Below the pieces are notes generated by a model. It had not been told where the DNA came from and did no database searches. It was given only the letters and a program-made list of their open reading frames with translations. From assembly GCF_016863295.1 (NCBI RefSeq), contig NZ_BOOP01000003.1:310001-374000 (forward strand): 64,000 nucleotides of DNA. Reading direction: 5' to 3'. Shown piece after piece: positions 6,363-63,722 of the stretch (the stretch's first letter is position 1; each line of letters opens with the position of its first letter). The translations under genes were made by a program, and so were the position numbers. This stretch comes from Planotetraspora phitsanulokensis (GTDB lineage Bacteria > Actinomycetota > Actinomycetes > Streptosporangiales > Streptosporangiaceae).

Positions 6363-6764
6363 TCAAGCCCCGGCGACGGGCTGGGTCTCGTGGACGCTGA
6401 TGTCGGTGCTCGGGTGATCGGGGAGGTCCCGGTCGGCGTGGTCGGCGTGGAACAGCGCTTCGTCCAGTAGCCGGCGTACGTGGACGTCCGCGGCGGAGTA
6501 GTAGACGAAGGTGCCTTCGCGGCGGCCCTTGACCAGCCCGGCCAGTCGCAGCTTGGCGAGGTGCTGGCTGACCGTGGTGGGCGTGGCGCCGACGAGTTCG
6601 GCGAGGCAGGCCACGGATGATTCGCCCTGCAGCAGCGCCCACAAGATCTTCATCCGGGTGGGGTCGGACAGCAGCCGCAGCGACTCGGCCGCCAAGTGCA
6701 CCTGCTCCTCGTTCGGCATCTGGAAGTCCGATATGGACGTGTGCATTTCCTCAGAGTACGCCAT
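6363..6764 (-). CDS. ArsR/SmtB metalloregulator, NmtR-like
   Basis: A 133-residue winged-helix repressor. The DNA-recognition helix is around residues 57-75 (ELVGATPTTVSQHLAKL). The helix alpha5 metal site is complete: Asp93, His95, His106 and His109 (D-x-H-x10-H-x2-H), as in CzrA/NmtR, and the C-terminal tail adds His117 and His125, comparable to the tail ligands by which NmtR selects Ni/Co. It is divergent from a P1B-4 ATPase with 47 bases between them, the same partnership as NmtR-CtpJ in mycobacteria. It should release the operator when Ni or Co binds; metal identity is inferred from ligands and partner. An ATG at 6743 is a possible alternative start. Confidence 0.9.
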   Translation of the reverse strand: MAYSEEMHTSISDFQMPNEEQVHLAAESLRLLSDPTRMKILWALLQGESSVACLAELVGATPTTVSQHLAKLRLAGLVKGRREGTFVYYSAADVHVRRLLDEALFHADHADRDLPDHPSTDISVHETQPVAGA

Positions 6765-6811
6765 AGTCGACTACTTGAATACCTGCGTGACTACGCATAT
6801 ATGATGATGCG
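6764..6811. promoter_or_regulatory. Divergent operator/promoter of the NmtR-like regulator and P1B ATPase
   Basis: The 47-base divergent gap holds TAGTCGACTA (perfect palindrome, 6764-6773), TGCGT-gact-ACGCA (6784-6797) and the hexamer GACTAC repeated exactly 20 bases apart (6769 and 6789), i.e. on one face of the helix. Rightward promoter candidate: TTGAAT (6775-6780) with TATATG (6798-6803) or TATGAT (6800-6805). The -10 ends so close to the GTG at 6812 that the ATPase mRNA is probably leaderless. Metal-free repressor bound here would cover both promoters. Confidence 0.55.
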
Positions 6812-8800
6812 GTGATAGCCAGTAAGGGCGCTGACGTGCTCGAACGTACCGATACGCCGAGAGATCCTTTGTCAGCACAGCCACGCCGCACCCGCTTACT
6901 GCGCTTGGCGGAGGTCAGGTGGGCACTGGCGGCGACTCTGCTGTTCGCGGGCGGCGGCATCGGGCAGCTGGCCGGAGCGCCCACCTGGCTGTGGTGGGCC
7001 CTGTACCTGGCCTGTTACGCCGCAGGCGGATGGGATCCGACGCTGTCCGGGCTGCGGGCGCTCGCGGAACGCCGGCTGGACGTCGACCTGCTGATGGTGG
7101 CCGCGGCCATCGGAGCCGCGGCGATCGGGCAGATCACCGACGGCGCCCTGCTGATCGTCATCTTCGCCACGTCAGGAGCGCTGGAGTCGTACGCCACGCA
7201 ACGGACCGAAGACTCCGTGCGCGGGCTCCTCGACCTGACGCCGGATACGGCGACCGTCATCCGCGGCGATGGGACCGAACAGGTCGTGCCCGCCTCGGAC
7301 CTGGCGGTCGGGGACGTGATTCTCGTCCGCCCGGGAGAACGTGTCGGCGCGGACGGCCAGGTCCTCGCCGGGGCGAGTGACGTCGACCAGGCCACCATCA
7401 CCGGAGAGCCGCTCCCCGCACCCAAACAGGTCGGGGACGAGGTGTTCGCCGGCACCGTGAACGGCACGGGAGCCCTCCGCGTGCGGGTCGAACGACCCGC
7501 GGGTGACACCGTCCTCGCCCGGATCGTCGCCATGGTTCAAGAAGCCAGTACGACCAAAGCCCGCACTCAACTGTTCATCGAGAAGGTCGAGCAGCGCTAC
7601 TCGGTCGGCATGGTCGTCGCCACCCTGCTGCTGTTCGCCGTCCCGCCGGCCTTCGGCGCGGACTTCCAGCCGACCCTGTTGCGGGCGATGACCTTCATGA
7701 TCGTCGCATCGCCCTGTGCGGTCGTCCTGGCGACCATGCCGCCGCTCCTGTCGGCGATCGCCAACGCCGGACGGCACGGCGTCCTCGTCAAATCCGCCGT
7801 CGTCCTCGAACAACTTGGCACCAGCACTGTGGTCGCGTTCGACAAGACCGGCACCCTGACCGAGGGCACTCCCCGTGTAACGGAAGTCCGGATCATGCCG
7901 GACGTCGTCGGCGGTGAAAGCGAGTTGCTGGCTCTGGCCGCCGCCGCCGAGAACCCGTCAGAGCATCCCCTCGCACGCGCGGTGGTGGCCGCGGCTCACA
8001 AGGCCGGTCTTCCTCTGGAGCACGCGGAGGAGTTCTCCGCCCTGCCGGGCCGCGGTGTCCGTGCCCGTGTCGCCGGTCGAGTGGTCGAGGCCGGCAGCCC
8101 GGCACATCTGCTCGGCACGGTCGGGCAGGACGACGTCGTCGTCACAGACGTCGCGACTCTGGAAATGGACGGCCAGACCGCGGTGGTCGTACGCGTGGAC
8201 GGACGTGTCGCCGGTGTCGTCGGTCTGGCCGATCACCTCAGGCCCGGGGCCGCGCAAGCCGTCCAGCAGATCACCACACTCACCGGAACCGGCCCGATCG
8301 TGCTGACCGGCGACAACCCACGCGCGGCGCGCCGGATCGCATCCGAACTCGGCATCACCGATGTCCACGCCGGACTGCTCCCCCACGAAAAGGTCGACGC
8401 CGTACGCGCGCTGGAAGCCGACGGGCACAAGGTCATGCTGGTCGGAGACGGCATCAACGACGCCCCGGCACTCGCCGCGGCGCACACCGGACTCGCCATG
8501 GGACGGGCCGGGTCCGACCTCGCCCTGCAGACAGCCGACGCGGTCATCGTCCGGGACGACCTGGCGACGATTCCCGCCATCATCGCCCTGTCCCGCCGAG
8601 CCCGGCGGCTCGTCACCGCGAACCTGATCATCGCAGCGGCGTTCATCACGGTCCTGGTGGCGTGGGACCTGCTGGGAGACCTGCCGCTTCCCCTCGGCGT
8701 CGCCGGGCACGAAGGGTCCACCATCATCGTCGGGCTCAACGGGCTACGCCTCCTGCGAGCGGCGGCCTGGCCTACTGCCACGAACGGAAAGGGCGCCTGA
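6812..8800 (+). CDS. P1B-4-type heavy-metal-exporting ATPase (CtpD/CtpJ-like)
   Basis: A 662-residue P-type ATPase. The phosphorylation motif DKTGT is at 344-348, the actuator motif TITGEP at about 195-200, the class-defining His-Pro in SEHPLARA and the hinge GDGINDAPAL. The metal-site helix has Ser-Pro-Cys (300-302) rather than Cys-Pro-Cys, and the last membrane region contains HEGST; this SPC plus HEGS/GT pair marks the P1B-4 subgroup, known for Co, Fe or Ni export. There is no N-terminal metal-binding domain, also typical of P1B-4. The GTG at 6812 is favoured because a -10 box ends just upstream; a GTG at 6836 is an alternative. It exports metal under control of the divergent NmtR-like sensor. 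Confidence 0.93.
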   Translation: MIASKGADVLERTDTPRDPLSAQPRRTRLLRLAEVRWALAATLLFAGGGIGQLAGAPTWLWWALYLACYAAGGWDPTLSGLRALAERRLDVDLLMVAAAIGAAAIGQITDGALLIVIFATSGALESYATQRTEDSVRGLLDLTPDTATVIRGDGTEQVVPASDLAVGDVILVRPGERVGADGQVLAGASDVDQATITGEPLPAPKQVGDEVFAGTVNGTGALRVRVERPAGDTVLARIVAMVQEASTTKARTQLFIEKVEQRYSVGMVVATLLLFAVPPAFGADFQPTLLRAMTFMIVASPCAVVLATMPPLLSAIANAGRHGVLVKSAVVLEQLGTSTVVAFDKTGTLTEGTPRVTEVRIMPDVVGGESELLALAAAAENPSEHPLARAVVAAAHKAGLPLEHAEEFSALPGRGVRARVAGRVVEAGSPAHLLGTVGQDDVVVTDVATLEMDGQTAVVVRVDGRVAGVVGLADHLRPGAAQAVQQITTLTGTGPIVLTGDNPRAARRIASELGITDVHAGLLPHEKVDAVRALEADGHKVMLVGDGINDAPALAAAHTGLAMGRAGSDLALQTADAVIVRDDLATIPAIIALSRRARRLVTANLIIAAAFITVLVAWDLLGDLPLPLGVAGHEGSTIIVGLNGLRLLRAAAWPTATNGKGA

Positions 8801-51210: not shown

Positions 51211-52869
51211 ATGAGTTCGTTCGACGCTGGTTTGATCTTCGTTCTTTCGCTGTTCGCCGCGCTGGCCGTGGCTTATCGCTACCTCGGTGACTACGTGTTC
51301 CGAGTCGTCACCGGTACCCGGCACTCGCGTGTCGAGCGTGGGGTCTACCGGCTGTTCGGTGCCGACCCCGCCCGCGAACAGTCGTGGGTCCAGTACGCGG
51401 GTAGCCTGCTGGCCTTCTCAGGGATCTCAATCCTCTTCCTGTACGCGTTCCTGCGGTTGCAGGGCAAGCTTGGCTGGCTTTCGAACGGGCTGCCCGGCGT
51501 ACCCGATCATCTCGCCTGGAACGTGGCGGTCAGCTTCGTCACCAATGCCAACTGGCAGGCGTACTCGGGTGAGTCGACCATGGGACACCTGGTGCAGATG
51601 ACCGGGTTCGGCGTACAGCAGTTCGCCTCCGCCGGGGTCGGCATCGCCGTGGCGGTCGTCCTCGTCCGGGGCTTCGCCCGCAGCCAGACCGACCGGCTGG
51701 GCAACTTCTGGGTCGACCTGACCCGGATCATCCTGCGGATTCTGCTGCCGTTCAGCGTCCTCATCGCCATCGTGCTGATCGTGGGCGGCGTGGTGCAGAA
51801 CCTCTCCGCGGGCGCGGAAGTCTCGACGTTGACCGGCGGGTCGCAGACGATAACCGGCGGGCCGGTAGCCAGCTGGGAGGCCATCAAGCTGCTGGGTACG
51901 AACGGCGGCGGTTTCTACAACGTCAACAGCGCCCACCCGTTCGAGAACCCGAGCGGCTGGACCAACTGGCTGGAGCTGTTCCTACTGCTGTGTATCCCGG
52001 TCAGCCTGGTACGGGTGTACGGCCGGATGGTCGGGCAGAACCGGCAGGGATACGCGATCCTGGCCGTGTTCGCGATCCTGGTGCTCGCCAGCGGCACCCT
52101 CCTCAACATCTTCGAGTCGGCCGGTCATGGCACGGTGCCGCAGGCGGTGGGTGCGGCACTGGAGGGCAAGGATGTCCGGTTCGGTGTCCAGCAGTCGGCC
52201 ATCTTCGCCGCGTTGAACACGGTGGGGTCAGGTGGCGTGGCCATCTCAAGTCACGACTCGTACACCGCGTTGGGCGGAGGGCTCCTGATGTTGAACATCA
52301 TGCTCGGCGGGCTCGGCATCGGCGCTGTCGGCACCGGCCTGTACGGCTATCTGATTTTCGCCATGACGACGGCCAAGCTGGCCGGCCTGATGGTCGGCCG
52401 GACCCCGGAGTTCCTGGGCAAGAAGGTCAGCGTTCGAGAAATGAAGCTGGTGTCGCTGTATACGCTGGTGCCCCCGGTACTGACGTTGACGGGTACGGCG
52501 GCGGCGTTCATGACCGGCCACAACTCCACCGCGCTCAACGTCGGCCCGCACGGCCTGTCCGAGGTGCTCTACGCGTTCACCTCGGCGAGCACCGCCAACG
52601 GCTCGTCGTTTGCCGGCATCGCTGTGAACACGCCCTGGTGGAACGTCGCGTTGGGCCTGATCATCTTGTTCGGCCGGTTCCTAGCGATCATCGTCGTGCT
52701 GGCACTCGCGGGCACCCTCGCGCGCAGGCAGACGATCCCGGTCTCGGCCGGCACGCTACCGACGGACACGCCGTTGTTCGTGGGGATGGTCGTCGCCGTC
52801 ACGGTGATCCTGACATCCCTGACCTACCTGCCCGCCCTGGCTCTCGGCCCTCTCGCGGAAGCACTGTGA
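51211..52869 (+). CDS. kdpA: KdpA, potassium-translocating subunit (orphan)
   Basis: A 552-residue K+-channel-like subunit of the Kdp P-type ATPase. All four selectivity-filter-like loops are recognisable: [33 protein letters not shown] and [14 protein letters not shown] 51211 follows GAGG and the length is normal, with no frameshift. What is missing is the rest of the operon: kdpB and kdpC do not follow, kdpDE are not nearby, and the next gene is convergent across a long hairpin. Without KdpB it cannot pump by the known mechanism, so it is either the remains of a broken operon or works with a distant kdpBC. Confidence 0.93.
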
Positions 52870-52902: not shown

Positions 52903-52938
52903 GCAGGCTGAATTCAGCACATCCTGAATTCAGCCTGC
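52903..52938. terminator. Long perfect hairpin between kdpA and the ZIP-like gene
   Basis: GCAGGCTGAATTCAG (52903-52917), a six-base loop and CTGAATTCAGCCTGC (52924-52938) make a 15-base-pair perfect stem. It lies between convergent genes and should stop transcription in both directions. Its length also makes it a candidate recombination scar at the point where kdpB would have begun. Confidence 0.8.
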
Positions 52939-52955: not shown

Positions 52956-54155
52956 CTACTCGCTCAGCCCTTCGAGAAGCTTCTGCCGCTGCGGTTCGCT
53001 CAGAGTGTCGATCCGCTGGTTCTCGGCGATGCCGCCGGCTGTGAGCACGGCGCTGATCTGTTCTGACGTGTGACGAGGCAGAACTCGGACGATGCGCCCG
53101 ATCCCGGTGCCCTTGGTGACCTCGTCGTCGCGGCGGAACACGTCGGCCAGGCTGAGTCGCCCTGATCGGACCGCGGCGCGAAGTTGCGCCTGCGTGAGAG
53201 CGGCGGTCTTGAAAGGCGAAGGAGTCGGATTCCGCGTTGGTGTCGTAGGCCGCGGGGTCGGGTGAGGTGAGGGGCTGGCGGAAACCTTTGTCGTTTGACC
53301 GACTGAGGTCGATGTGGCCTCTGCCGGTTCTTCTTCGTTGAAGGTGTGAGCAGTGGCGAGCAGCACCCCGGCGGTTGTGGCGGCGGTGGCGGCGATGGCG
53401 ATCTGGCGGGTGGACAGGCGCCCGTTGCGTTGTTTGCTGGCCGCGAGTTTCATGCCGACGATCGCGGTGCGAAGGAGGACGCCCATCACCATGCTCAACA
53501 GGATGGGGACCATCTGAGGCGGGAGCGGGCTGAGGGTGGCGGTCGCGACGCCGACGGCGGGACTGGCGCAGGAGACGACGAGCCAGGGCGTTAGGCGTTG
53601 CCGGGCGATGTCGAGCAGCGCGGCCAGGGCGAGCCCTTCACTGGCGGAGTGAACGGTGAGGGCGATGACGACAACGATCGAGGCGGTCAGTGCCAGGGTT
53701 GCGCCCTCGATGGCGCGGTGCATGGTCAATGCCGCCGCGGTCCCCATTCCGCCGTACACGGCGGCGCCGACGCCTTGTTTGACTCGCCGGTGGATGCCGG
53801 GCGCGTGCGAACCGTAGCGGGACGGTTCGTCGTCGGGGCAGGCGCAGCCCCTACGGGTGAAGTAGGTGATGACGAGGAATCCGAACGCGGCCGCCAGCGC
53901 CGGCTCCCACAAGGGGACACCGGTCTCTCCGGCTTCGGCGTACGCGTCGGGCAGCAGGTCGACGAGGGCCGTGACGATCATCATGGCCGAGGCGATCGCC
54001 AGCCACAGGGTCATCCGTTGGCTGTTGCGCCGCGCGAGCCATGCGCCGGCGAGCGTGGAGGCGCAGACGAGCAGCACTGCCGCCCAGGCCTCCTGTCGGG
54101 CGGGTTGTCCTTCCAGCACCGGCTCCATGGCCTGTGCCCATGCGGATAGGGGCAT
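52956..54155 (-). CDS. ZIP-like metal transporter fused to an mIHF/H2TH-like C-terminal domain
   Basis: A 399-residue protein. The first 250 residues hold about seven hydrophobic helices with ZIP-type metal motifs: His-x3-Glu-Gly in TMHRAIEGATLAL and again in VHSASEGLALAAL. A disordered Pro/Thr/Ser linker follows (PSPHPTPRPTTPTRNPTPSP). The last 85 residues, from LTQAQLRAAVRSGRLSLADV to RIDTLSEPQRQKLLEGL, follow the mycobacterial integration host factor closely: 'LxxVx...V..G.GIGRIVRVLP..........GIAENQRIDTLSEPQRQKLL'. A transporter with an mIHF-like tail is not a fusion I know. ATG 54155 has AGAGGTG. Metal uptake or export role and tail location are unresolved. Confidence 0.8.
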   Translation of the reverse strand: MPLSAWAQAMEPVLEGQPARQEAWAAVLLVCASTLAGAWLARRNSQRMTLWLAIASAMMIVTALVDLLPDAYAEAGETGVPLWEPALAAAFGFLVITYFTRRGCACPDDEPSRYGSHAPGIHRRVKQGVGAAVYGGMGTAAALTMHRAIEGATLALTASIVVVIALTVHSASEGLALAALLDIARQRLTPWLVVSCASPAVGVATATLSPLPPQMVPILLSMVMGVLLRTAIVGMKLAASKQRNGRLSTRQIAIAATAATTAGVLLATAHTFNEEEPAEATSTSVGQTTKVSASPSPHPTPRPTTPTRNPTPSPFKTAALTQAQLRAAVRSGRLSLADVFRRDDEVTKGTGIGRIVRVLPRHTSEQISAVLTAGGIAENQRIDTLSEPQRQKLLEGLSE

Positions 54156-54265
54156 TGATGAGCACCTCTGGTCGATCTGTCCGCCAAGGCTCGGCGGCGC
54201 GGATGGGATCCCGGGGCCGGTATTGAAGGCGTGGTCATCCACGTGTGTCGGTCAGTCGTGGAGCC

Positions 54266-54931
54266 TCAGGTCGCGGGGCGCGGGGCGGCTTCGCCTGCCG
54301 CGGGGTTGCCGTGGAACTGCGGCGTCGGGGATTCGCCGTGGTGGTGGAGCTGGTCGAGCAGGTTCCGCATCTGGGTGATTTGACCGTCGAGCGTCTGCTT
54401 CATATGGGAGTCGAAGTCGACGATGAAGGCGTGCAGTGTCTGTATCCGCCGACCCAGCGCTTCCTTGTGGGTCTCGTGGGTGCTTGCGCGGTGGAGTGCC
54501 GCACCTGTTTTCAGCACGTCGTGTTGCAACTGTTCGGCTCGGGCACGCGCTTGGCTGAGGATGGTGTTCGCTTCCTGATGGGCCTTGGCGACGGTCCGTG
54601 CGGCGGTTTCGTGGGCGAGCTCGATGATGCGGGTCGCGCTGTCACCCGATGGGATCGGCTGCGGAGCCTCATCAGTTCGAAGCGAGCGTCCCCGTAGTTC
54701 CTGGTTCTGTTGAAGGATCGTGGTCAGGGCGGTCTCCACGAGGCCCAGGAACGCGTCCACTTCGGCCAGGTCGTAGCCTTCGCGAAGGCGCACCACGGTG
54801 AAGACCTGGTTGCGCACGGCCACCGGGTTCAGCAGTCCGTCCGGGCCTTGTGGGTCAAGGGCCCGTGCAGTCGATTCGTTCGATGCGGCATCCGCCGAAT
54901 GGCCGTGCCCGTGTCCGTGGTCTTCACCCAT
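54266..54931 (-). CDS. DivIVA-domain coiled-coil protein with His-rich N-terminus
   Basis: A 221-residue protein. It begins MGEDHGHGHGHSADAAS, a metal-binding His-Gly repeat. Residues about 33-72 match the DivIVA N-terminal domain (LLNPVAVRNQVFTVVRLREG, then YDLAEVDAFLGLVETALTTI). The rest is a long coiled coil (TAARTVAKAHQEANTILSQA, RARAEQLQHDVLKTGAALHR) ending in HHHGESPTPQF. DivIVA-type proteins bind curved membranes and organise poles. A His-Gly tail on one is unusual and suggests metal responsiveness or storage. It lies between the ZIP-like gene and the His-rich peptide gene, all on one strand. Confidence 0.85.
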   Translation of the reverse strand: MGEDHGHGHGHSADAASNESTARALDPQGPDGLLNPVAVRNQVFTVVRLREGYDLAEVDAFLGLVETALTTILQQNQELRGRSLRTDEAPQPIPSGDSATRIIELAHETAARTVAKAHQEANTILSQARARAEQLQHDVLKTGAALHRASTHETHKEALGRRIQTLHAFIVDFDSHMKQTLDGQITQMRNLLDQLHHHGESPTPQFHGNPAAGEAAPRPAT

Positions 54932-55068
54932 GAGAGTTCACCGATCCTTTCGATGGGATGAGAGCACCGGCGCGCGAATCTCGCGTTATGCCGGTACGGT
55001 CGAATGCTGAGTGCTATTTCTACGCTTATCGTCGCTCGGCGATAATTCCTTGTCCCCCTGAGGGCGGA

Positions 55069-55102
55069 CCCGTTTCCGAGGCACGTGAATCTCGGAAACG
55101 GG
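55069..55102. terminator. Hairpin after the His-rich peptide gene
   Basis: CCCGTTTCCGAG (55069-55080), ten-base loop, CTCGGAAACGGG (55091-55102): a perfect 12-base-pair stem 86 bases past the stop of the minus-strand His-rich gene. It suggests that gene is transcribed separately from the DivIVA-like gene. Confidence 0.7.
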
Positions 55103-55187
55103 CCGCGCTCCCGGAGGTCGGCTATTTCTCGTTGCCGGCCTGACCCGCTATCCGGAGTTGATTCTTGGCGGTTCGGGTGCGTGCCGG

Positions 55188-55340
55188 CTAGTCGTCAGCG
55201 TGGCAGTGCCCGTGGTCGTCGTGGTGGTCTCCCTGGTGCTCGTGGCCGTGATCGGCGTGAGTATCCGCCTGGCCGGCGTCGGTGCAGGGGGCGTCGATAC
55301 ACGACGAATGTGCGTGCTCGCCATGGTTTTCTGGATCCAT
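55188..55340 (-). CDS. 50-residue His/Asp/Cys-rich peptide, probable metal-binding protein
   Basis: A small gene with a good ribosome site (GGAGG five bases before ATG 55340). The product begins MDPENHGEHAHSSCIDAPCT and ends DHHDDHGHCHADD. Of 50 residues 12 are His, 3 Cys (14, 19, 46) and 13 Asp/Glu; there is no hydrophobic core, signal peptide or membrane helix. Such a composition is that of Ni/Zn/Co storage peptides such as Hpn or HypB tails, or of metallothionein-like buffers, but the sequence itself matches no family I know. It is followed by its own terminator and lies between the SH3b and DivIVA-like genes in the metal locus. Confidence 0.75.
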   Translation of the reverse strand: MDPENHGEHAHSSCIDAPCTDAGQADTHADHGHEHQGDHHDDHGHCHADD

Positions 55341-55668
55341 TGGAACCTCCATTTCAGATGTGGGTTCGCAGTTGCGCTTTGCGTGTCCCGATCACCGAGC
55401 AGGAAATGCGGAGAACCGCTGACCGTGCCGGCCGCTTGCGCGTGATGGGCGGCATATTCGCGCTCGCGCCGGAACAGAGTTGATTGGATCCGCGGCTGCG
55501 CGGCGCCACTATTCGGGATCGGTTGGTTGTGGCGAGAATCGGTCACAGTGGGTGTGGCCTCGTATCGCCGCGGAGGGTTGCGATCCGTTAGGTGGCTCCG
55601 CCCTCGATGTGGCGGGAGGCCGGGGGCGGGGTGTGGTGCGAACCGTGAGGGAATCTGGCTGATCGCCG
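55341..55668. other. Intergenic region upstream of the His-rich peptide gene
   Basis: About 330 bases. It presumably contains the promoter of the peptide gene (minus strand), but no convincing -35/-10 pair or dyad was found. A 33-codon minus-strand frame (from ATG 55455 to about 55357) ending just before the ribosome site is too ordinary in composition to claim. Confidence 0.35.
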
Positions 55669-56244
55669 CTATCCGGCGACCTTGTGCAGGTAGTAGGCCG
55701 ACGCCCAGCCGGAGCGAGCGTTGGAGGACTTGACGGCGATCCAGCCTCGGCTGGACGTGCATCCTCCTGCGAACCGTCCGTCGGACACTCGAAGTGCCCC
55801 GATCCGCCGCGCGCCGACCCCTGGCGCCGTGCGCACGTTCAGATAGCTGCTTCGCCGGACGTTGGCGACCTGGTAGGTGCACGCCAGGGAGGGACGCGTG
55901 GTGGTGGTGCGATGTGTCGGGGTGCTCCTTCGCAGGTAGTGGGCGTAGGCCCAGCCGGAGCGACCGTTGGAGGATCTGACGGCGATCCAGCCTCGGGTGG
56001 ACGCGCACCCGCCGGTGAGCCGTCCGCCCGACGCCCGCAGGGTCCCGACCGGCCGCGAATTGAGAGCGGGTGCCGTCCGGACGTTGACGTAGCCGCCCGG
56101 TTTGACGTTCGTGAGCTGGTAGGTGCATGCCGGGGCCGGGTGGACGGACGCGGAGGTCGCCTGGGCAGGGGTGGCGATGACCGTGAGCCATCCTGCGGCG
56201 GCGCAGACGGCCAGCGCGGGGGTCACCCGCTTGGTGATGTTCAC
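55669..56244 (-). CDS. Secreted protein with two SH3b repeats
   Basis: A 191-residue exported protein. Signal peptide: TKRVTPALAVCAAAGWLTVI ending ATPAQA. Two SH3b (SH3_3-type) repeats follow: CTYQLTNVKPGGYVNVRTAP ... RGWIAVRSSNGRSGWAYAHY and CTYQVANVRRSSYLNVRTAP ... RGWIAVKSSNARSGWASAYY. Each has a Cys pair (CTYQ ... GGCAS or GGCTS) likely to form a disulfide. SH3b domains bind peptidoglycan or cell-wall ligands. GTG 56244 follows GAAGGGAG. It is divergent from the ArsR-CDF pair, with an ArsR-like operator in the gap, so metal-linked wall binding is possible but inferred. Confidence 0.87.
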   Translation of the reverse strand: MNITKRVTPALAVCAAAGWLTVIATPAQATSASVHPAPACTYQLTNVKPGGYVNVRTAPALNSRPVGTLRASGGRLTGGCASTRGWIAVRSSNGRSGWAYAHYLRRSTPTHRTTTTRPSLACTYQVANVRRSSYLNVRTAPGVGARRIGALRVSDGRFAGGCTSSRGWIAVKSSNARSGWASAYYLHKVAG

Positions 56245-56362
56245 GATGTCTCCCTTCTGTTCGCATCGCTTTGCCTGGGGTGGCCAGTGTGGTGGTCGAA
56301 GTCAGGGGACCCGACCTGCGATGCTCACCATGTGTAGTTCTACGATTACCCTACGCTTACAC

Positions 56363-56381
56363 ATATGAGCAATCGTTCAAT
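56363..56381. promoter_or_regulatory. ArsR-type operator, distal copy
   Basis: ATATGAGCAATCGTTCAAT (core TGAGCAATCGTTCA, 56366-56379) resembles SmtB/CadC operators (TGAA-N-TTCA). The same pattern, TGAATAGTCGTTCA, is at 56485-56498, 119 bases away; a longer stretch, TACA-ATxTGAxxAxTCGTTCAA, is common to both. This copy is nearer the divergent SH3b gene. Confidence 0.55.
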
Positions 56382-56448
56382 CGTTTCTTTTACCTGCCGA
56401 CGGGGGGTGTAGCGATAACCATGTGCAATTGAGTGTTCACCGAACGTC

Positions 56449-56498
56449 TTGACATGGGGCACGCTCACCATATGCTTGTACATGTGAATAGTCGTTCA
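56449..56498 (+). promoter_or_regulatory. Promoter and proximal operator of arsR-CDF
   Basis: TTGACA (56449-56454), 16-base spacer, TATGCT (56471-56476) is a near-consensus sigma-70-type promoter. Transcription should begin about 56483-56484, at GTG 56484, so the mRNA is leaderless and ATG 56472, inside the -10 box, cannot be used. TGAATAGTCGTTCA (56485-56498) sits on the start site: bound ArsR would block transcription. Confidence 0.75.
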
Positions 56499-56888
56499 AA
56501 TGTCGTGTCGATCGCCGCGGATGCGTGCTCGGTATCCGTCACGGACGCCGATCGGGTGGCCGCCGTGCAGCGGGCGCTGCCGTCCGAGGAGTGCGTGCAG
56601 AACCTGGCCCACGTCTTCGGGTTGCTCGCCGACCCCGGGCGGCTTCGCCTCATCTCCGCCCTGCTGGAGGGTGGTGAGATGTGCGTGTGCGACCTGGCCG
56701 CGGCGACCGGGCAGAGCATGTCTGCCGCCTCGCACGCGTTGCGACTGCTCCGCGCCGACCGAGTGGTGAAGGTCCGCCGGGCCGGGCGGATGGCCTACTA
56801 CCGGCTGGCCGACTCGCATGTGCGGATGTTGTTCGACCTGGCCATCACCCATGTCGGACACGAGGACGGGGAACACGGCGATGGCTGA
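56484..56888 (+). CDS. ArsR/SmtB metalloregulator with alpha3N and alpha5 sites
   Basis: A 134-residue repressor. It has both known metal-site types: an alpha3 pair in GGEMCVCDLAAATGQ (Cys-x-Cys, as in CadC/ArsR), an upstream N-terminal Cys in ADACSVSV, and the complete alpha5 site DSHVRMLFDLAITHVGH (D-x-H-x10-H-x2-H). The tail adds His in EDGEHGDG. The HTH is SMSAASHALRLLRADRVVKV. The promoter fixes GTG 56484 as the start. The gene overlaps the CDF gene by eight bases. It should sense Cd/Pb and Zn; which site is used cannot be read off. Confidence 0.92.
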   Translation: MNSRSNVVSIAADACSVSVTDADRVAAVQRALPSEECVQNLAHVFGLLADPGRLRLISALLEGGEMCVCDLAAATGQSMSAASHALRLLRADRVVKVRRAGRMAYYRLADSHVRMLFDLAITHVGHEDGEHGDG

Positions 56889-57900
56889 CCGGGCTGTTCA
56901 CGCCAGACCGGGCGACGCGGAACACGTGGGTTCGGAAAGGGATCGTGCCCATGGGCATGGGCATGGGCACGGTGTCAGTGCGGAGGCGGACCGGCGCCAC
57001 CTGTCCGGTGCTCTCGCGCTGATTGTGGGGTTCATGGCCGTTGAGGTGGTCATCGGCTTCATCGCCCAGTCGCTCGCGCTGATCTCCGATGCGGGTCACA
57101 TGCTGACCGACGCCATCGCGATCGTCTTCGCCCTGATCGCCATGAGGATCGCAGCCCGGCCTCCTCGTGGGGGCTTCACCTACGGCCTCAAGCGCGCTGA
57201 GATCATCTCCGCGCAGATCAACGGAATCACGCTACTGCTGCTCAGCGCTTATTTCGTCTACGAAGGCATCCGGCGGCTGATCGTCCCACCCGAGGTCGAA
57301 GGTCTGTACGTGGTCGTCACGGGATTGGCGGGCATCGCCGTCAACCTCGCCGCGACCTGGCTGCTCAACAAGGCCAACCGGTCGAGCCTCAACGTCGAAG
57401 GCGCCTTCCAGCACATCCTCAACGACCTGTACGCCTTCATCGCCACCACCGCGGCCGGCGCCGTCGTATGGCTCACCGACTGGGGCAGGGCCGACGCCCT
57501 CGCCGCCCTCGTCGTCGCGGCGCTGATGCTCAAGGCCGGCTGGGCTCTCGTCCGCGACTCAGGCCGCGTGTTCATGGAAGCCGCGCCCGCCGGCATGAAC
57601 CCCGCCGAGATCGGCCGCAGGACCGCCACCATCGATCAGGTCACCGAGGTGCACGACCTGCACATCTGGGAGGTCACCTCCGGCTACGCGGCCATGTCCG
57701 CCCACATCCTGGTCGAGCCGCGAGCCGACTGCCACCGAGTGCGGCAAGCGGCCGAGCGGCTCGTGCACGACGAATACGGCATCAGCCACACGACCCTCCA
57801 GGTCGACCACGCCGCTGCCGGACGGCCCGCCGACGACCGTACCGAGCGCCATTGCGCTGATCCCCACGGTCCGATTCACACAGCACAGGCTCCGCGTTGA
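56881..57900 (+). CDS. CDF-family cation diffusion exporter (CzcD/ZitB-like)
   Basis: A 339-residue exporter. The cytoplasmic N-terminus has a His-Gly repeat (AHGHGHGHGVSA). The six-helix domain carries both zinc-site motifs: His-x3-Asp in ISDAGHMLTDAIA and FQHILNDLYAFI. The C-terminal ferredoxin-like domain has VTEVHDLHIWEVTSGYAAMS with the conserved His and Asp. These exporters exchange Zn, Cd or Co for protons. ATG 56881 overlaps the arsR stop (ATGGCTGA), implying translational coupling: sensor and pump are one unit. Confidence 0.94.
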   Translation: MADRAVHARPGDAEHVGSERDRAHGHGHGHGVSAEADRRHLSGALALIVGFMAVEVVIGFIAQSLALISDAGHMLTDAIAIVFALIAMRIAARPPRGGFTYGLKRAEIISAQINGITLLLLSAYFVYEGIRRLIVPPEVEGLYVVVTGLAGIAVNLAATWLLNKANRSSLNVEGAFQHILNDLYAFIATTAAGAVVWLTDWGRADALAALVVAALMLKAGWALVRDSGRVFMEAAPAGMNPAEIGRRTATIDQVTEVHDLHIWEVTSGYAAMSAHILVEPRADCHRVRQAAERLVHDEYGISHTTLQVDHAAAGRPADDRTERHCADPHGPIHTAQAPR

Positions 57901-59082: not shown

Positions 59083-59490
59083 TTGAAGATCGGAGACCTG
59101 GCCGCGAAGACGGGTGTCGCGCCGCGGCTGCTTCGTTACTACGAAGAGGTCGGCATCCTGCACCCGTTCCGGAGCGGCAACGGATACCGCACTTACGGCG
59201 AGCCTGCTATCGACCGTGTACTGCAGATTCGCGAACTTCTCGAAGCCGGCTTCACGACGGAGATGATCCGCGAGGTCCTGCCCTGTCTCGAGGCCGCGAA
59301 AGAAGAAACGAAGGCCCCGGAATGCCCGGCGGTAAAGGATCTGGACGGACTGCGACGTCAACTCAGCAGCATCGAACGACGCATCGACGTGCTACAACGC
59401 AACAAGCACGCGATCGAGACATATCTGCGCGCCTGGGAGGACGCCACGGCTACAGCAGCCGATGGAGTCCCAGTCCCGGTTGCGGAGTGA
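59083..59490 (+). CDS. MerR-family transcriptional activator
   Basis: A 135-residue MerR protein: MKIGDLAAKTGVAPRLLRYY, then EEVGILHPFRSGNGYRTYGE and a coiled-coil dimer helix (LRRQLSSIERRIDVLQRNKH). The effector region between has Cys in LPCLEAAKEETKAPECPAVK: two Cys 14 residues apart, too few for a classical metal loop. TTG 59083 follows GAGGAGAG. Its 19-base-spacer promoter is on the other strand, in front of the SDR, so it is likely that SDR's activator and that the signal is a compound the SDR reduces. Confidence 0.9.
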   Translation: MKIGDLAAKTGVAPRLLRYYEEVGILHPFRSGNGYRTYGEPAIDRVLQIRELLEAGFTTEMIREVLPCLEAAKEETKAPECPAVKDLDGLRRQLSSIERRIDVLQRNKHAIETYLRAWEDATATAADGVPVPVAE

Positions 59491-61389: not shown

Positions 61390-62637
61390 TCAGGGCTTGT
61401 GCGTCAAAGGTTGGGCGTGCGCCTGGTCCGTGAGTCGGCCCCCGCGATGCAGCAGGTGCATGCCGTACGCGGATCCCAGACCGGCCAGCACCAGGAGCAG
61501 CCACGGCAGACCGTCCGAGCCTGTTCCGTTGGCGATGTCGAGCGAGAGGCCGACGAGCAGGTTCCCGATGAGGATGCCGATCCCGGAGATCAGGTTGTAG
61601 AGGCCGTAGTAGGTGCCGATCAATCGGTCGCCGGCCAGTCGCGCGATGGTCGCCATCTCGAACGGGAAGACGAGCAGTGTCCCGAGCGTGAGAACGGTGA
61701 CGCACGCGACGACAAGAACCATGCCGACCGGGCCGGACAGGCGACCTGCGGGGATGAGCAGTCCGAACGACAGTCCCATCAGTGCCAGTCCGGCGGACAT
61801 GGCCTGGGCTGGTTGCCATCTGCGCTCGCACCAGGTCGTGACGGGGAGCTGAGCGAAGATCCCCAGCAAGGCGGAGATCACGTACAGAACTGGAACGCCT
61901 GCCTCACTACCTGTGAGCCGCCGTACCTCCAGCGGCAGCCCGAGATAGATCTGATACGACAGGGCGTAGTAGGCGAACATCGTCACGGCGAAGCGGGAAA
62001 AGGGGCGATTGCCGAGTGCTTCGCGCCAGTCGGCGAGTACCGCTCCCGAACCGGCCGCGGCCCCGGTTCGTGGGGGCAGATGCCGCCATTGCAGTGCGGT
62101 GAGGGCCGCGAAGACCGCGGCAGCGGTCAGGCACATGACACGGAAGTCCAGGTTGATCAGCGCGATGCCGATCAACGGGCCGATGAGGATCCCGGTCTGG
62201 TAGAAGACGTTGAAAAGCGCGAAGGCCTCGACCTTGCGCTCCCCTGCCTCGTGGGCCAGGTAGGCGCGGGCGGCGGGGTTGAACAGGGCTCCCGCGAATC
62301 CCGTCAGCACCGCGGCTGTGATCATGGCCGGCAGGGCGACCGAGAGGGCGAACATCGCGAACGCGACGGTCCGGAGAGCGCACCCCGCCATGATGAGGGG
62401 CCGGTAGCCGAGCCGGTCGGCCATGGTGCCGCCGATGAGGAACATCCCCTGCTGGCTGACGTTGCGCAGCCCGAGGACCAGCCCGGCCGCCCAGATCGCC
62501 AAGCCGGCCTGGGCGGTCAGGTGATCGGCGAGGTACGGCATGAGCATGTAGAAGCCGATGTTGATGCCGAGCTGGTTCACGAACAGGACCCGCGCCGCTG
62601 GACTGAACGAACCTGCTGCTCGCAGCGTGCCGATCAC
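61390..62637 (-). CDS. MFS exporter, partner of the cysteine-synthase-like gene
   Basis: A 415-residue MFS protein. The N-terminal half has [20 protein letters not shown] and [20 protein letters not shown] (motif A), and the middle [20 protein letters not shown] and [20 protein letters not shown]; this order is typical of the DHA1 MdtH-like group. GTG 62637 overlaps the stop of the preceding gene (GTGA), so the two are translationally coupled. Coupling a biosynthetic PLP enzyme to an exporter suggests that the product of the enzyme leaves the cell. Confidence 0.88.
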
Positions 62638-63722
62638 CGGATCCGCTCCAGCGGGTCGGTGACCACTCGGCAGCGGGTCCAGCGGGTGACCTCTCGTTCG
62701 CCGGCGTGACCGATCTCGTCCGGCCCGTCCACAGGCATTCCGTCCAGCAGGTCGTGCGTCGAGCAGTAGTCGTCGCTGTAGACGGTGTTCCAGTAACGCC
62801 ATGGGCCATCGGGGAACACCGCGACGATGACGTGGTCCGCGCTCAGAGTCACGGCCAGCCACCGGGCCACCAGCGCCACCGCACCGGTGCTCCAGCCACC
62901 GGAGACGTTGAGGCCCGCGGCGAGTTGCCTGCATGCCCATACGGCTTCGGCCGGGCTGACCCAGTGCACCTCGCTGAAAGCGTCGTAGGCGACATTGCGC
63001 GGGTGGATGCTGCTGCCCAGCCCGCGCATGATGCGGTCGCGGGGAGGTTGACCGAAGATGGTCGAACCCACCGCGTCGACGCCGACGAGCCGGAGTCCGG
63101 GAAAGCGTCGCCGCAGGACACGGTGGATCCCCGAACTGTGTGCGCCGGTTCCCACGGAGCAGACCAGAACGTCTATGCGCGGAAACTGCTCGGCCAGCTC
63201 GCGGGCGAGTCCTGCGTACGCCTCGACCAGATCCGGGTTGTTGTACTGGTCGGGACAGTACGCGCCTGGCAGGCGTGACATCAGCTCGGCTACCCGGTCG
63301 CGGCGCGCCTGCTGCCAGCCCCCATGAGGATGCGGGCTTTCGACGATCTCCACGCGTGCGCCGTAGGCCCGCAGCATCTGCCGCATGATGGGCTCCAGAC
63401 CGGCGTCGGCGACAAGGGTGACAGGGTGCCTGTAGACCGCACCCGCGCGCGCCAGCCCGAGCCCGAACGTCCCGCTGGTCGACTCGACGATCATTCCGCC
63501 GGGCAGGAGCTCGCCGCGCGTGCGGGCCTGGTGGATCACGTGCAGCGCGGCTCGGTCCTTGATTCCTCCCGGGTTGAATCCCTCCAGCTTCGCCCAGAAG
63601 CCTCTTCCGGCCGGGACGAACGGTTGATCGACATACATCGAGGGTGTGTGGCCGACGACGGCCGTCGAAGAAGTCACCCGCTCAGGTGACCTGGCCTGAG
63701 GGAAACCGGCGTGAATAGTCAT
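62634..63722 (-). CDS. PLP-dependent cysteine-synthase-family enzyme
   Basis: A 362-residue fold-type-II PLP enzyme. The Schiff-base Lys is in [20 protein letters not shown], the pyridoxal-binding loop in [20 protein letters not shown], and the phosphate loop in [20 protein letters not shown]. The segment [20 protein letters not shown] lies before the C-terminal [20 protein letters not shown]. This pattern is that of the cysteine synthase/SbnA-like group, which includes 2,3-diaminopropionate-forming and other non-canonical beta-substitution enzymes. No cysE is adjacent. ATG 63722 has GGAAGA. It overlaps an MFS exporter gene. Confidence 0.87.

Follow-up and report, generated by a model that had tools for sequence, protein, structure and literature searches.

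What unites a metal sensor, a metal exporter and four leftward genes that range from a wall-type protein to a DivIVA-domain protein? The question is raised by a locus of Planotetraspora (Streptosporangiaceae; genome size 9.17 Mb) lying in the window G000:C3:310001-374000, by which we mean the whole 64,000-nucleotide stretch of DNA analysed (G### denotes a genome, g## a genus and L### a genomic stretch, or locus). An earlier note on this DNA had described six genes with metal features here, and all six open reading frames (ORFs), with their family matches, are present where it had placed them. We conclude that they very probably belong to a co-regulated metal module whose core is a ZIP-like membrane protein and a DivIVA-domain protein, and this recurring gene set suggests that some soil actinomycetes build an organised membrane patch against zinc or cadmium poisoning. 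Its parts, in window coordinates, are:

52956..54155, minus strand: ZIP-like membrane protein with a PT-rich linker and an mIHF-like C-terminal domain (399 amino acids (aa); PF02535, M1 ligands, HAPGxHRR-type cytosolic loop)
54266..54931, minus strand: DivIVA-domain protein with an N-terminal HGHGHGH (221 aa; PF05103)
55188..55340, minus strand: His/Asp/Cys-rich peptide, a probable metal buffer (50 aa; homologues in relatives)
55669..56244, minus strand: SH3b protein whose N-terminus is signal-like and which carries two SH3_3 repeats (191 aa; profile match)
56362..56383, no strand: putative operator 1, on the SH3b side, CATATGAGCAATCGTTCAATCG (27.5 bits; word absent from the training set)
56481..56502, no strand: putative operator 2, on the arsR side, CATGTGAATAGTCGTTCAAATG (31.9 bits; training word)
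56454..56888, plus strand: ArsR/SmtB sensor with CVC and DxHx10HxxH (NF033788; true start possibly 56484 or 56505)
56881..57900, plus strand: cation diffusion facilitator (CDF) exporter with HMLTD and HILND sites and an N-terminal His-Gly run (339 aa; TIGR01297)

On the rightward side, the ArsR matches HTH_metalloreg (NF033788, E = 3e-24; 84.5 bits against a cut-off of 55), with a start that is uncertain because operator 2 sits where the gene would begin. The CDF matches TIGR01297 (E = 1e-71; 241.6 bits against a cut-off of 82) and also ZitB (E = 2.5e-59, under that model's cut-off), with its HxxxD sites in transmembrane segments (TM) 2 (HMLTD) and 5 (HILND); the His-Gly run that had been read as its tail is actually near the N-terminus. 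On the leftward side, the SH3b protein has an SH3_3 match in a profile search (E = 2.6e-11), and the peptide does contain 12 His in 50 residues, together with 3 Cys and 10 Asp. The DivIVA protein begins MGEDHGHGHGH, bearing out the His-rich start described for it, and matches PF05103 (E = 1e-11; 45.4 bits against a cut-off of 28). The description of the ZIP-like protein as carrying an mIHF-like tail holds in that both families are matched, but both scores fall under curated cut-offs: PF02535 at E = 2.7e-6 (27.3 bits against the Pfam cut-off of 35.1) and, for the tail, actino_IHF NF041260 at E = 9e-8 (32.5 bits against 60). A paralogue on contig C7 reaches 37.6 bits with PF02535, above its cut-off, and the best placed start of the window ZIP gene is 54155. 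The operator cores begin at 56366 and 56485, which gives exactly the reported distance of 119 bases, and the same spacing recurs in L063 and L066.

Is the grouping more than an accident of this strain, as the earlier note had asked? Among 120 Streptosporangiaceae genomes from 68 genera, a genome was counted as ZIP-positive, by hand, when a match of at least 80 bits covered the ZIP part of the window protein used as the query. By this measure the ZIP-like protein is present in 23 genomes and 12 genera, commonly in two or three copies, with a remnant in one more genome (G098); 55 of the 120 genomes have some match to the window ZIP, many of them to the mIHF domain only. In each of these 23 genomes at least one ZIP copy adjoins a DivIVA gene, and an order-level search added two more genomes with the DivIVA-ZIP pair, from genus g65, bringing the genera to 13. 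Within the family the grouping thus extends to 13 genera or more, and it is also found on a Streptomyces plasmid described below; the refuting condition that the earlier note had set, co-occurrence in this strain alone, does not hold.

We compared 42 ZIP neighbourhoods, comprising the window, L024, L025 and 39 of 40 further stretches; L053, an ArsR-CDF unit without a ZIP gene, was excluded, and duplicates (L022 = L063, L023 = L056 and L026 = L068) were counted once. As 13 of these loci come from Planotetraspora, in which the closest named relatives are P. thailandica (L063) and P. kaengkrachanensis (L056), the counts are not independent. Within 4 kb of ZIP, DivIVA is found in 33 loci, CDF in 20, ArsR in 14 and SH3b in 11, one of the last (L076) overlapping the DivIVA gene and looking spurious. 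A His-rich small ORF was detected by script in seven loci, versus two in 523 kb of background; the script missed a homologue of the window peptide in L056 (76% identity, tblastn) and reported for L063, where a homologue has 51% identity, a second ORF that is doubtful. An SH3b gene divergent from arsR recurs in L063, L066, L072, L081 and the plasmid of Streptomyces sp. CdTB01. DivIVA mostly precedes ZIP (it is 3 kb away in L024) and follows it in genera g27 and g33, so their adjacency has outlived rearrangement. The core is therefore the ZIP-like protein and the DivIVA-domain protein, with ArsR, CDF, SH3b and the His/Cys peptide recurring and none of them obligatory. The idea of a metal system around one sensor stands as far as linkage, shared operators and recurring His-rich parts go; only the DivIVA-ZIP pair, however, is near constant.

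The pairing also holds in the reverse direction. When the window DivIVA was searched against the 120 genomes, all of the 24 best matches (476.8 to 52.8 bits) adjoin a ZIP-like gene; the lower-ranking matches are for the most part DivIVA proteins around 300 aa long, at close to one for each genome, and a small number of weaker cassette DivIVAs are scattered among them. This DivIVA subfamily therefore travels with ZIP. The 9.17 Mb of the window genome hold five DivIVA-domain genes, of which one scores under the Pfam cut-off, and three ZIP-like genes; two of the former stand beside two of the latter.

Are these genes also under common control? A 22-base operator matrix, trained on 13 arsR-promoter sites, was scanned across 871 kb, of which cassette promoters, those of arsR and CDF included, make up 56.5 kb or 6.5% of the bases. 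Forty of the 41 strong matches (at least 19 bits) lie in cassette promoters, and the 41st (L063:14047) marks the start of an arsR that the gene caller had missed and tblastn found; five mononucleotide shuffles gave no match at this threshold. For words outside the training set the figure is 25 of 26, some of these matches being arsR-proximal and close to training words. Eleven of these 25 lie in gaps that have no ArsR gene closer than about 8 kb: at the CDF|DivIVA gaps of L054, L057, L059 (two), L061 (two) and L064 and at the ZIP promoter of L073, all in 20-kb loci that have no ArsR, and at the ZIP promoters of L084-L086, where an ArsR-CDF pair lies about 8 kb off. L102 has an operator word of 20.2 bits upstream of DivIVA. 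No good cassette operator was found in L055, L058, L060, L062 (SH3b|ZIP), L071, L074, L076, L078, L079 or L082. The grouping exceeds chance: the pair is met repeatedly in the family, and the operator motif hardly occurs outside cassette promoters.

The ArsRs of these neighbourhoods have CxC in 20 of 22 cases and the alpha5 motif DxHx10HxxH in 21 of 22, and strict HxxxD patterns are present in 23 (TM2) and 19 (TM5) of 27 CDFs. We take the ArsR motifs to be CzrA/CadC-like metal sites and, with those of the pump, to point to Zn/Cd; ArsR probably binds the operators, with Zn/Cd as the likely inducer.

The cassette linkage also occurs on a plasmid of another family. Streptomyces sp. CdTB01, called 'a bacterium tolerant to cadmium' in a title cited by PMC9195940, carries all six kinds of gene on plasmid NZ_CP013744, in an order that differs from that of the window: ArsR divergent from SH3b, a 335-aa protein, the peptide (66 aa; His/Cys/Asp-rich), CDF, ZIP-like and DivIVA. 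The two best operator words of that locus, 20.1 and 18.1 bits, lie in the ArsR|SH3b gap. Its ArsR keeps DxHx10HxxH and has no CxC, its DivIVA has no HGH arm and its ZIP has no mIHF-like tail. On five other Streptomyces plasmids a ZIP-like gene lacks the partners over a distance of about 6 kb, a weak SH3b match in L108 being the one exception, and the matrix scan placed no operator at these solitary ZIP genes. A plasmid search with query P0002 returned two records, CdTB01 and Nonomuraea gerenzanensis, and the ZIP-like gene of the Nonomuraea plasmid is more distant and likewise without partners. A class-wide search with a Streptomyces ZIP query matched 19 of 148 genomes at E 1e-6, the window genome included; the matches outside that genome were weak (27-33% identity, at most 37 bits), and we took them for ordinary ZIPs.

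These results bear on the plainest alternative, that an ordinary ArsR-CDF pair happens to lie by unrelated genes in GC-rich, His-prone sequence. Each part is indeed common alone, the five Streptomyces plasmids show that the ZIP-like gene can occur without partners, and 22 of the 42 loci have no CDF within 4 kb. Such coincidence is contradicted on three counts: the genes are linked in different genera and on a plasmid from outside the family, the reverse DivIVA search leads back to ZIP, and promoters of ZIP and DivIVA carry the operator motif where no ArsR is near. We consider it scarcely credible and have rejected it.

What, then, might the ZIP-like protein do? Across an alignment of 32 members, 31 match PF02535 at E <=0.01, and H146xxxE150G and H169xxxE173G are invariant. 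These four ligands align to ZupT H119/E123/H148/E152 and, via ZupT, to the M1 ligands of BbZIP, although the hhalign probability to ZupT is just 58% (E = 1e-4). The BbZIP ligands, with M2 comprising N178, D208 and E240, are those given in PMC9873690. In the window protein the M2 positions are occupied by R147 and S170 in the alignment and by P199, which was placed by eye beside TM6 of ZupT/BbZIP, outside the aligned stretch. Judged from these residues, the ZIP-like protein keeps one predicted metal site (M1) and has lost the second (M2). Charge and hydropathy fit the ZIP topology of eight TMs with both ends outside, a prediction under which the mIHF-like domain and the PT-rich linker would both face the wall.

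One reading of this protein is that it is an ordinary metal importer, in a cassette that balances uptake and efflux as a futile cycle or a metal filter. The ZIP profile membership and the retained M1 ligands are what an importer would have, whereas the substituted M2 positions and the loss of the TM5 His in CdTB01 are not, and a promoter that shares the exporter's operator would cause the protein to be made under metal excess. We find this reading improbable. Because its gene carries the exporter's operator and the second metal site is lost, we think that the ZIP-like protein may be a single-site exporter or facilitator, or else a membrane anchor or sensor, and is unlikely to be an ordinary importer.

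A C-terminal tail is found in 24 of the 32 ZIPs in the alignment and resembles an mIHF fold (S13-like H2TH). It matches mIHF 6tob by profile at E = 4e-8, and its four best Foldseek rows are sIHF/mIHF with probability 1.00, but with E values of 0.06-0.2. The G(V/I)GK element of 6tob/4itq, which we take to be the DNA contact in DNA-binding mIHF proteins, is absent in all 32 rows, 24 of them tailed. With this element missing and the topology placing the tail outside, we considered and set aside as unlikely a role as a DNA-binding regulator. Net charge (mean +3.5 for the tails, range -1 to +15, versus +5 for both references) did not separate the two groups and was not used.

Four loci of Planotetraspora (L055, L058, L060 and L062) contain a third ZIP-mIHF paralogue, divergent from an SH3b gene beyond which lies a Cu/Zn superoxide dismutase-like gene (best model SodCMycob, below its cut-off). 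They have no DivIVA or CDF within 4 kb and no operator of at least 19 bits, and the paralogue is perhaps a wall-side branch of the family. Elsewhere, the first ZIP copy stops short of the mIHF-like domain in L056 (9472-10461; P. kaengkrachanensis) and L063 (9657-10613; P. thailandica), and in L056 the SH3b is reduced to a 26-residue trace, which indicates that cassette parts decay.

What might link the ZIP-like protein to its DivIVA partner? Across the alignment, 31 of 32 ZIPs have a loop on the cytosolic side, H(A/R/L/T)(P/A)GxHRR, which in 27 of them reads exactly HAPGxHRR; the loop also occurs in L087 and L101-L103. It is missing in L092 and L104-L108, all six of which have no nearby DivIVA. 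Five loci have the loop and no local DivIVA (L055, L058, L060, L069 and L073, from genomes G000, G001, G002, G107 and G081), and each of these genomes carries a cassette DivIVA elsewhere. Loop presence is correlated with DivIVA linkage. PF05103 is matched in all 22 aligned cassette DivIVAs, and most of the copies from Planotetraspora have an HGH-type N-terminal arm, as do those of L025, L066, L067, L072 and L087. The cassette peptides have Cys in common as well as His and are therefore better named His/Cys buffers.

We propose that an ArsR repressor occupies the two operators of the divergent gap until excess Zn(II), and probably Cd(II) too, binds it and frees both sides. Release would yield ArsR and the CDF exporter on the right and, on the left, the SH3b protein, the His/Cys peptide, the DivIVA-domain protein and the ZIP-like protein. 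From this point we infer the steps from the predicted properties of the products. The SH3b protein would sit on the wall side and the peptide would soak up cytoplasmic metal; the DivIVA protein would assemble on the membrane, dock on the HAPGxHRR loop of ZIP and gather ZIP and CDF into a cluster, an organised efflux patch to which the HGHGHGH arm and the peptide would pass the metal they collect for export. We give this DivIVA-scaffolded mechanism an even chance, its DivIVA-ZIP contact, its clustering and the direction of ZIP all being inferred. The earlier note's suggestion of spatially organised storage or export would likewise draw on the presence of a DivIVA domain, on the conservation of the ZIP loop and on the example of PacL, considered below. 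A fuller version, which we hold tentatively and as possible rather than probable, is that actinomycetes have put a polar DivIVA-type scaffold to use in metal resistance, and that a metal-induced, His-armed DivIVA docks through the loop on a single-site ZIP to form a polar or septal compartment with CDF, the peptide, a non-DNA-binding extracytoplasmic mIHF-like domain and SH3b, amounting to a DivIVA-based effluxosome unrelated to PacL and partly spread by plasmids.

The main rival to the scaffold mechanism is a regulon of independent helpers, in which the exporter, the peptide and the wall protein act directly and DivIVA adjusts tip growth or septation under metal stress without organising transporters. 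Such a regulon would suit the role of DivIVA proteins as growth scaffolds, the wall-type nature of the SH3b domain and the absence of a His arm from some members of the DivIVA subfamily. It would suit neither the linkage of all 24 best DivIVA matches to ZIP instead of growth genes nor the occurrence of the ZIP loop with DivIVA. We regard it as rather unlikely.

Several observations weigh against the scaffolded patch. The localisation and metal induction of the cassette products are at present a proposal. A nearby DivIVA is missing in nine of the 42 ZIP loci (L055, L058, L060, L062, L065, L069, L073, L089, which holds a ZIP remnant, and L092) and a nearby CDF in 22, and in six of the 32 aligned ZIPs the loop or ZIP is present and a local DivIVA absent. 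The HGH arm is missing in the DivIVA copies of g27, g33 and g50. In the CdTB01 ZIP, G and D replace the His and Glu of TM5, so that transport may be unimportant for this protein. The 11 ArsR-free operators reduce to about three independent cases, since seven come from five orthologous Planotetraspora loci and three from genus g33. AlphaFold2 models of ZIP from six aligned rows had a mean pLDDT (predicted local distance difference test) of 46 for the whole protein and 41 for the core modelled separately, which is unusable, and we therefore claim no fold for the ZIP core.

Some features of the surroundings deserve mention. The gaps between the leftward genes (110, 256 and 328 bases) are wide, which makes a single leftward transcript uncertain, and a repeat search found two inverted repeats:

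52903..52938, no strand: perfect 15-bp inverted repeat in the kdpA/ZIP gap, a possible two-way terminator
55069..55102, no strand: perfect 12-bp inverted repeat in the peptide/DivIVA gap

The second forms a hairpin that could act as an attenuator or terminator, setting peptide and DivIVA levels apart. The kdpA gene (window 51211-52869; full length, TIGR00680, 597 bits) is convergent with the cassette and has no adjacent kdpB; the sole DKTGT motif of the window belongs to a heavy-metal P-type ATPase at 7841. This ATPase is of Zn/Cd type and forms a further divergent pair with an ArsR (window 6363-8800), the gap between them scoring just 11.2 bits against the cassette operator. A second ArsR-CDF unit lies about 17 kb from the first, just past the window (L053 2049-6097 = G000:C3:374049-378097), with its own operator of 29.4 bits and then a polar amino-acid (cystine-type) ATP-binding cassette (ABC) transporter. 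In P. thailandica (L063) these two units adjoin each other, and the CDF of the first is broken. A MerR-family regulator (window 59083-59490; best models CueR/ZntR, below cut-offs) lies between the cassette and this second unit. Polar amino-acid ABC transporters adjoin CDF or ZIP more widely, clusters c7 and c10 occurring together in eight loci; of four binding proteins scanned, two are nearest a cystine model and two a Lys/Arg/Orn model, all below curated cut-offs. We would guess that such a transporter supplies thiols under metal stress. Finally, a major facilitator superfamily (MFS) exporter stands beside an SbnA-like pyridoxal phosphate (PLP) enzyme (2,3-diaminopropionate synthase family, below cut-off) at window 61390-63638, and an SbnA-like gene of the same cluster is also downstream of ZIP in P. 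thailandica (L063); the two could be part of a metallophore pathway.

DivIVA is known as a growth and division scaffold. If the scaffolded patch is real, a DivIVA subfamily inherited with metal-resistance genes, and under the same operator, would have acquired a new job, metal homeostasis would be tied to hyphal polarity, and membrane metal-efflux platforms would have evolved more than once. A literature search limited to open-licence papers, so far as their accessible text goes, found no description of such a DivIVA-ZIP metal cassette. A text search of PMC11431748, on Planotetraspora genomes, gave no mention of zinc, heavy metal or DivIVA, and a 2022 paper states, in the portion consulted, that its authors had come across no work on heavy-metal stress and the DivIVA-domain protein (PMC8836040). 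The loop, the His arm and the operators offer short, testable parts, and the hosts are harmless soil bacteria.

How does the cassette compare with known systems? ArsR/SmtB-controlled metal systems include the CzrA-CzrB, ZiaR and CadC types. The cassette resembles ArsR-CDF systems in its CVC and DxHx10HxxH ArsR, its divergent TGAA-N6-TTCA-type operators and its Zn-type CDF, and differs in that its operators also serve SH3b, DivIVA and ZIP promoters. With ZupT/BbZIP the ZIP-like protein shares the TM4/TM5 H/E motifs at M1 positions and the predicted topology, but has replaced M2 ligands, an extra HAPGxHRR-type loop and, in 24 of 32 members, the mIHF-like tail. The cassette DivIVA has the N-terminal domain and coiled-coil-type tail of DivIVA/Wag31, but is shorter, often His-armed and ZIP-linked, and scores 56.5 with the Wag31 model against a cut-off of 260. 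The tail resembles mIHF/sIHF (PDB 6tob, 4itq and 6bek) by profile match and predicted fold; unlike them, it is fused to a membrane protein, predicted to be extracellular and without G(V/I)GK in all 32 rows. The closest parallel to the proposed organisation is the PacL/Ctp platforms of Mycobacterium tuberculosis, described in the parts of PMC9374683 and PMC13043812 consulted as a metal-inducible set with a membrane scaffold that bears a metal-binding motif beside an exporter. The organising logic would be common to both, in actinomycetes. The components differ, a small transmembrane PacL and a P1B-ATPase there and DivIVA, ZIP-like and CDF proteins here; no P1B-ATPase partner was found at the cassette, the sole P-type ATPase motif of the window being the one at 7841, more than 40 kb distant, and we claim no homology. 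On our reading, the cassette would encode a membrane platform that Zn/Cd induces and DivIVA scaffolds, a counterpart of the mycobacterial PacL effluxosomes without homology to them.

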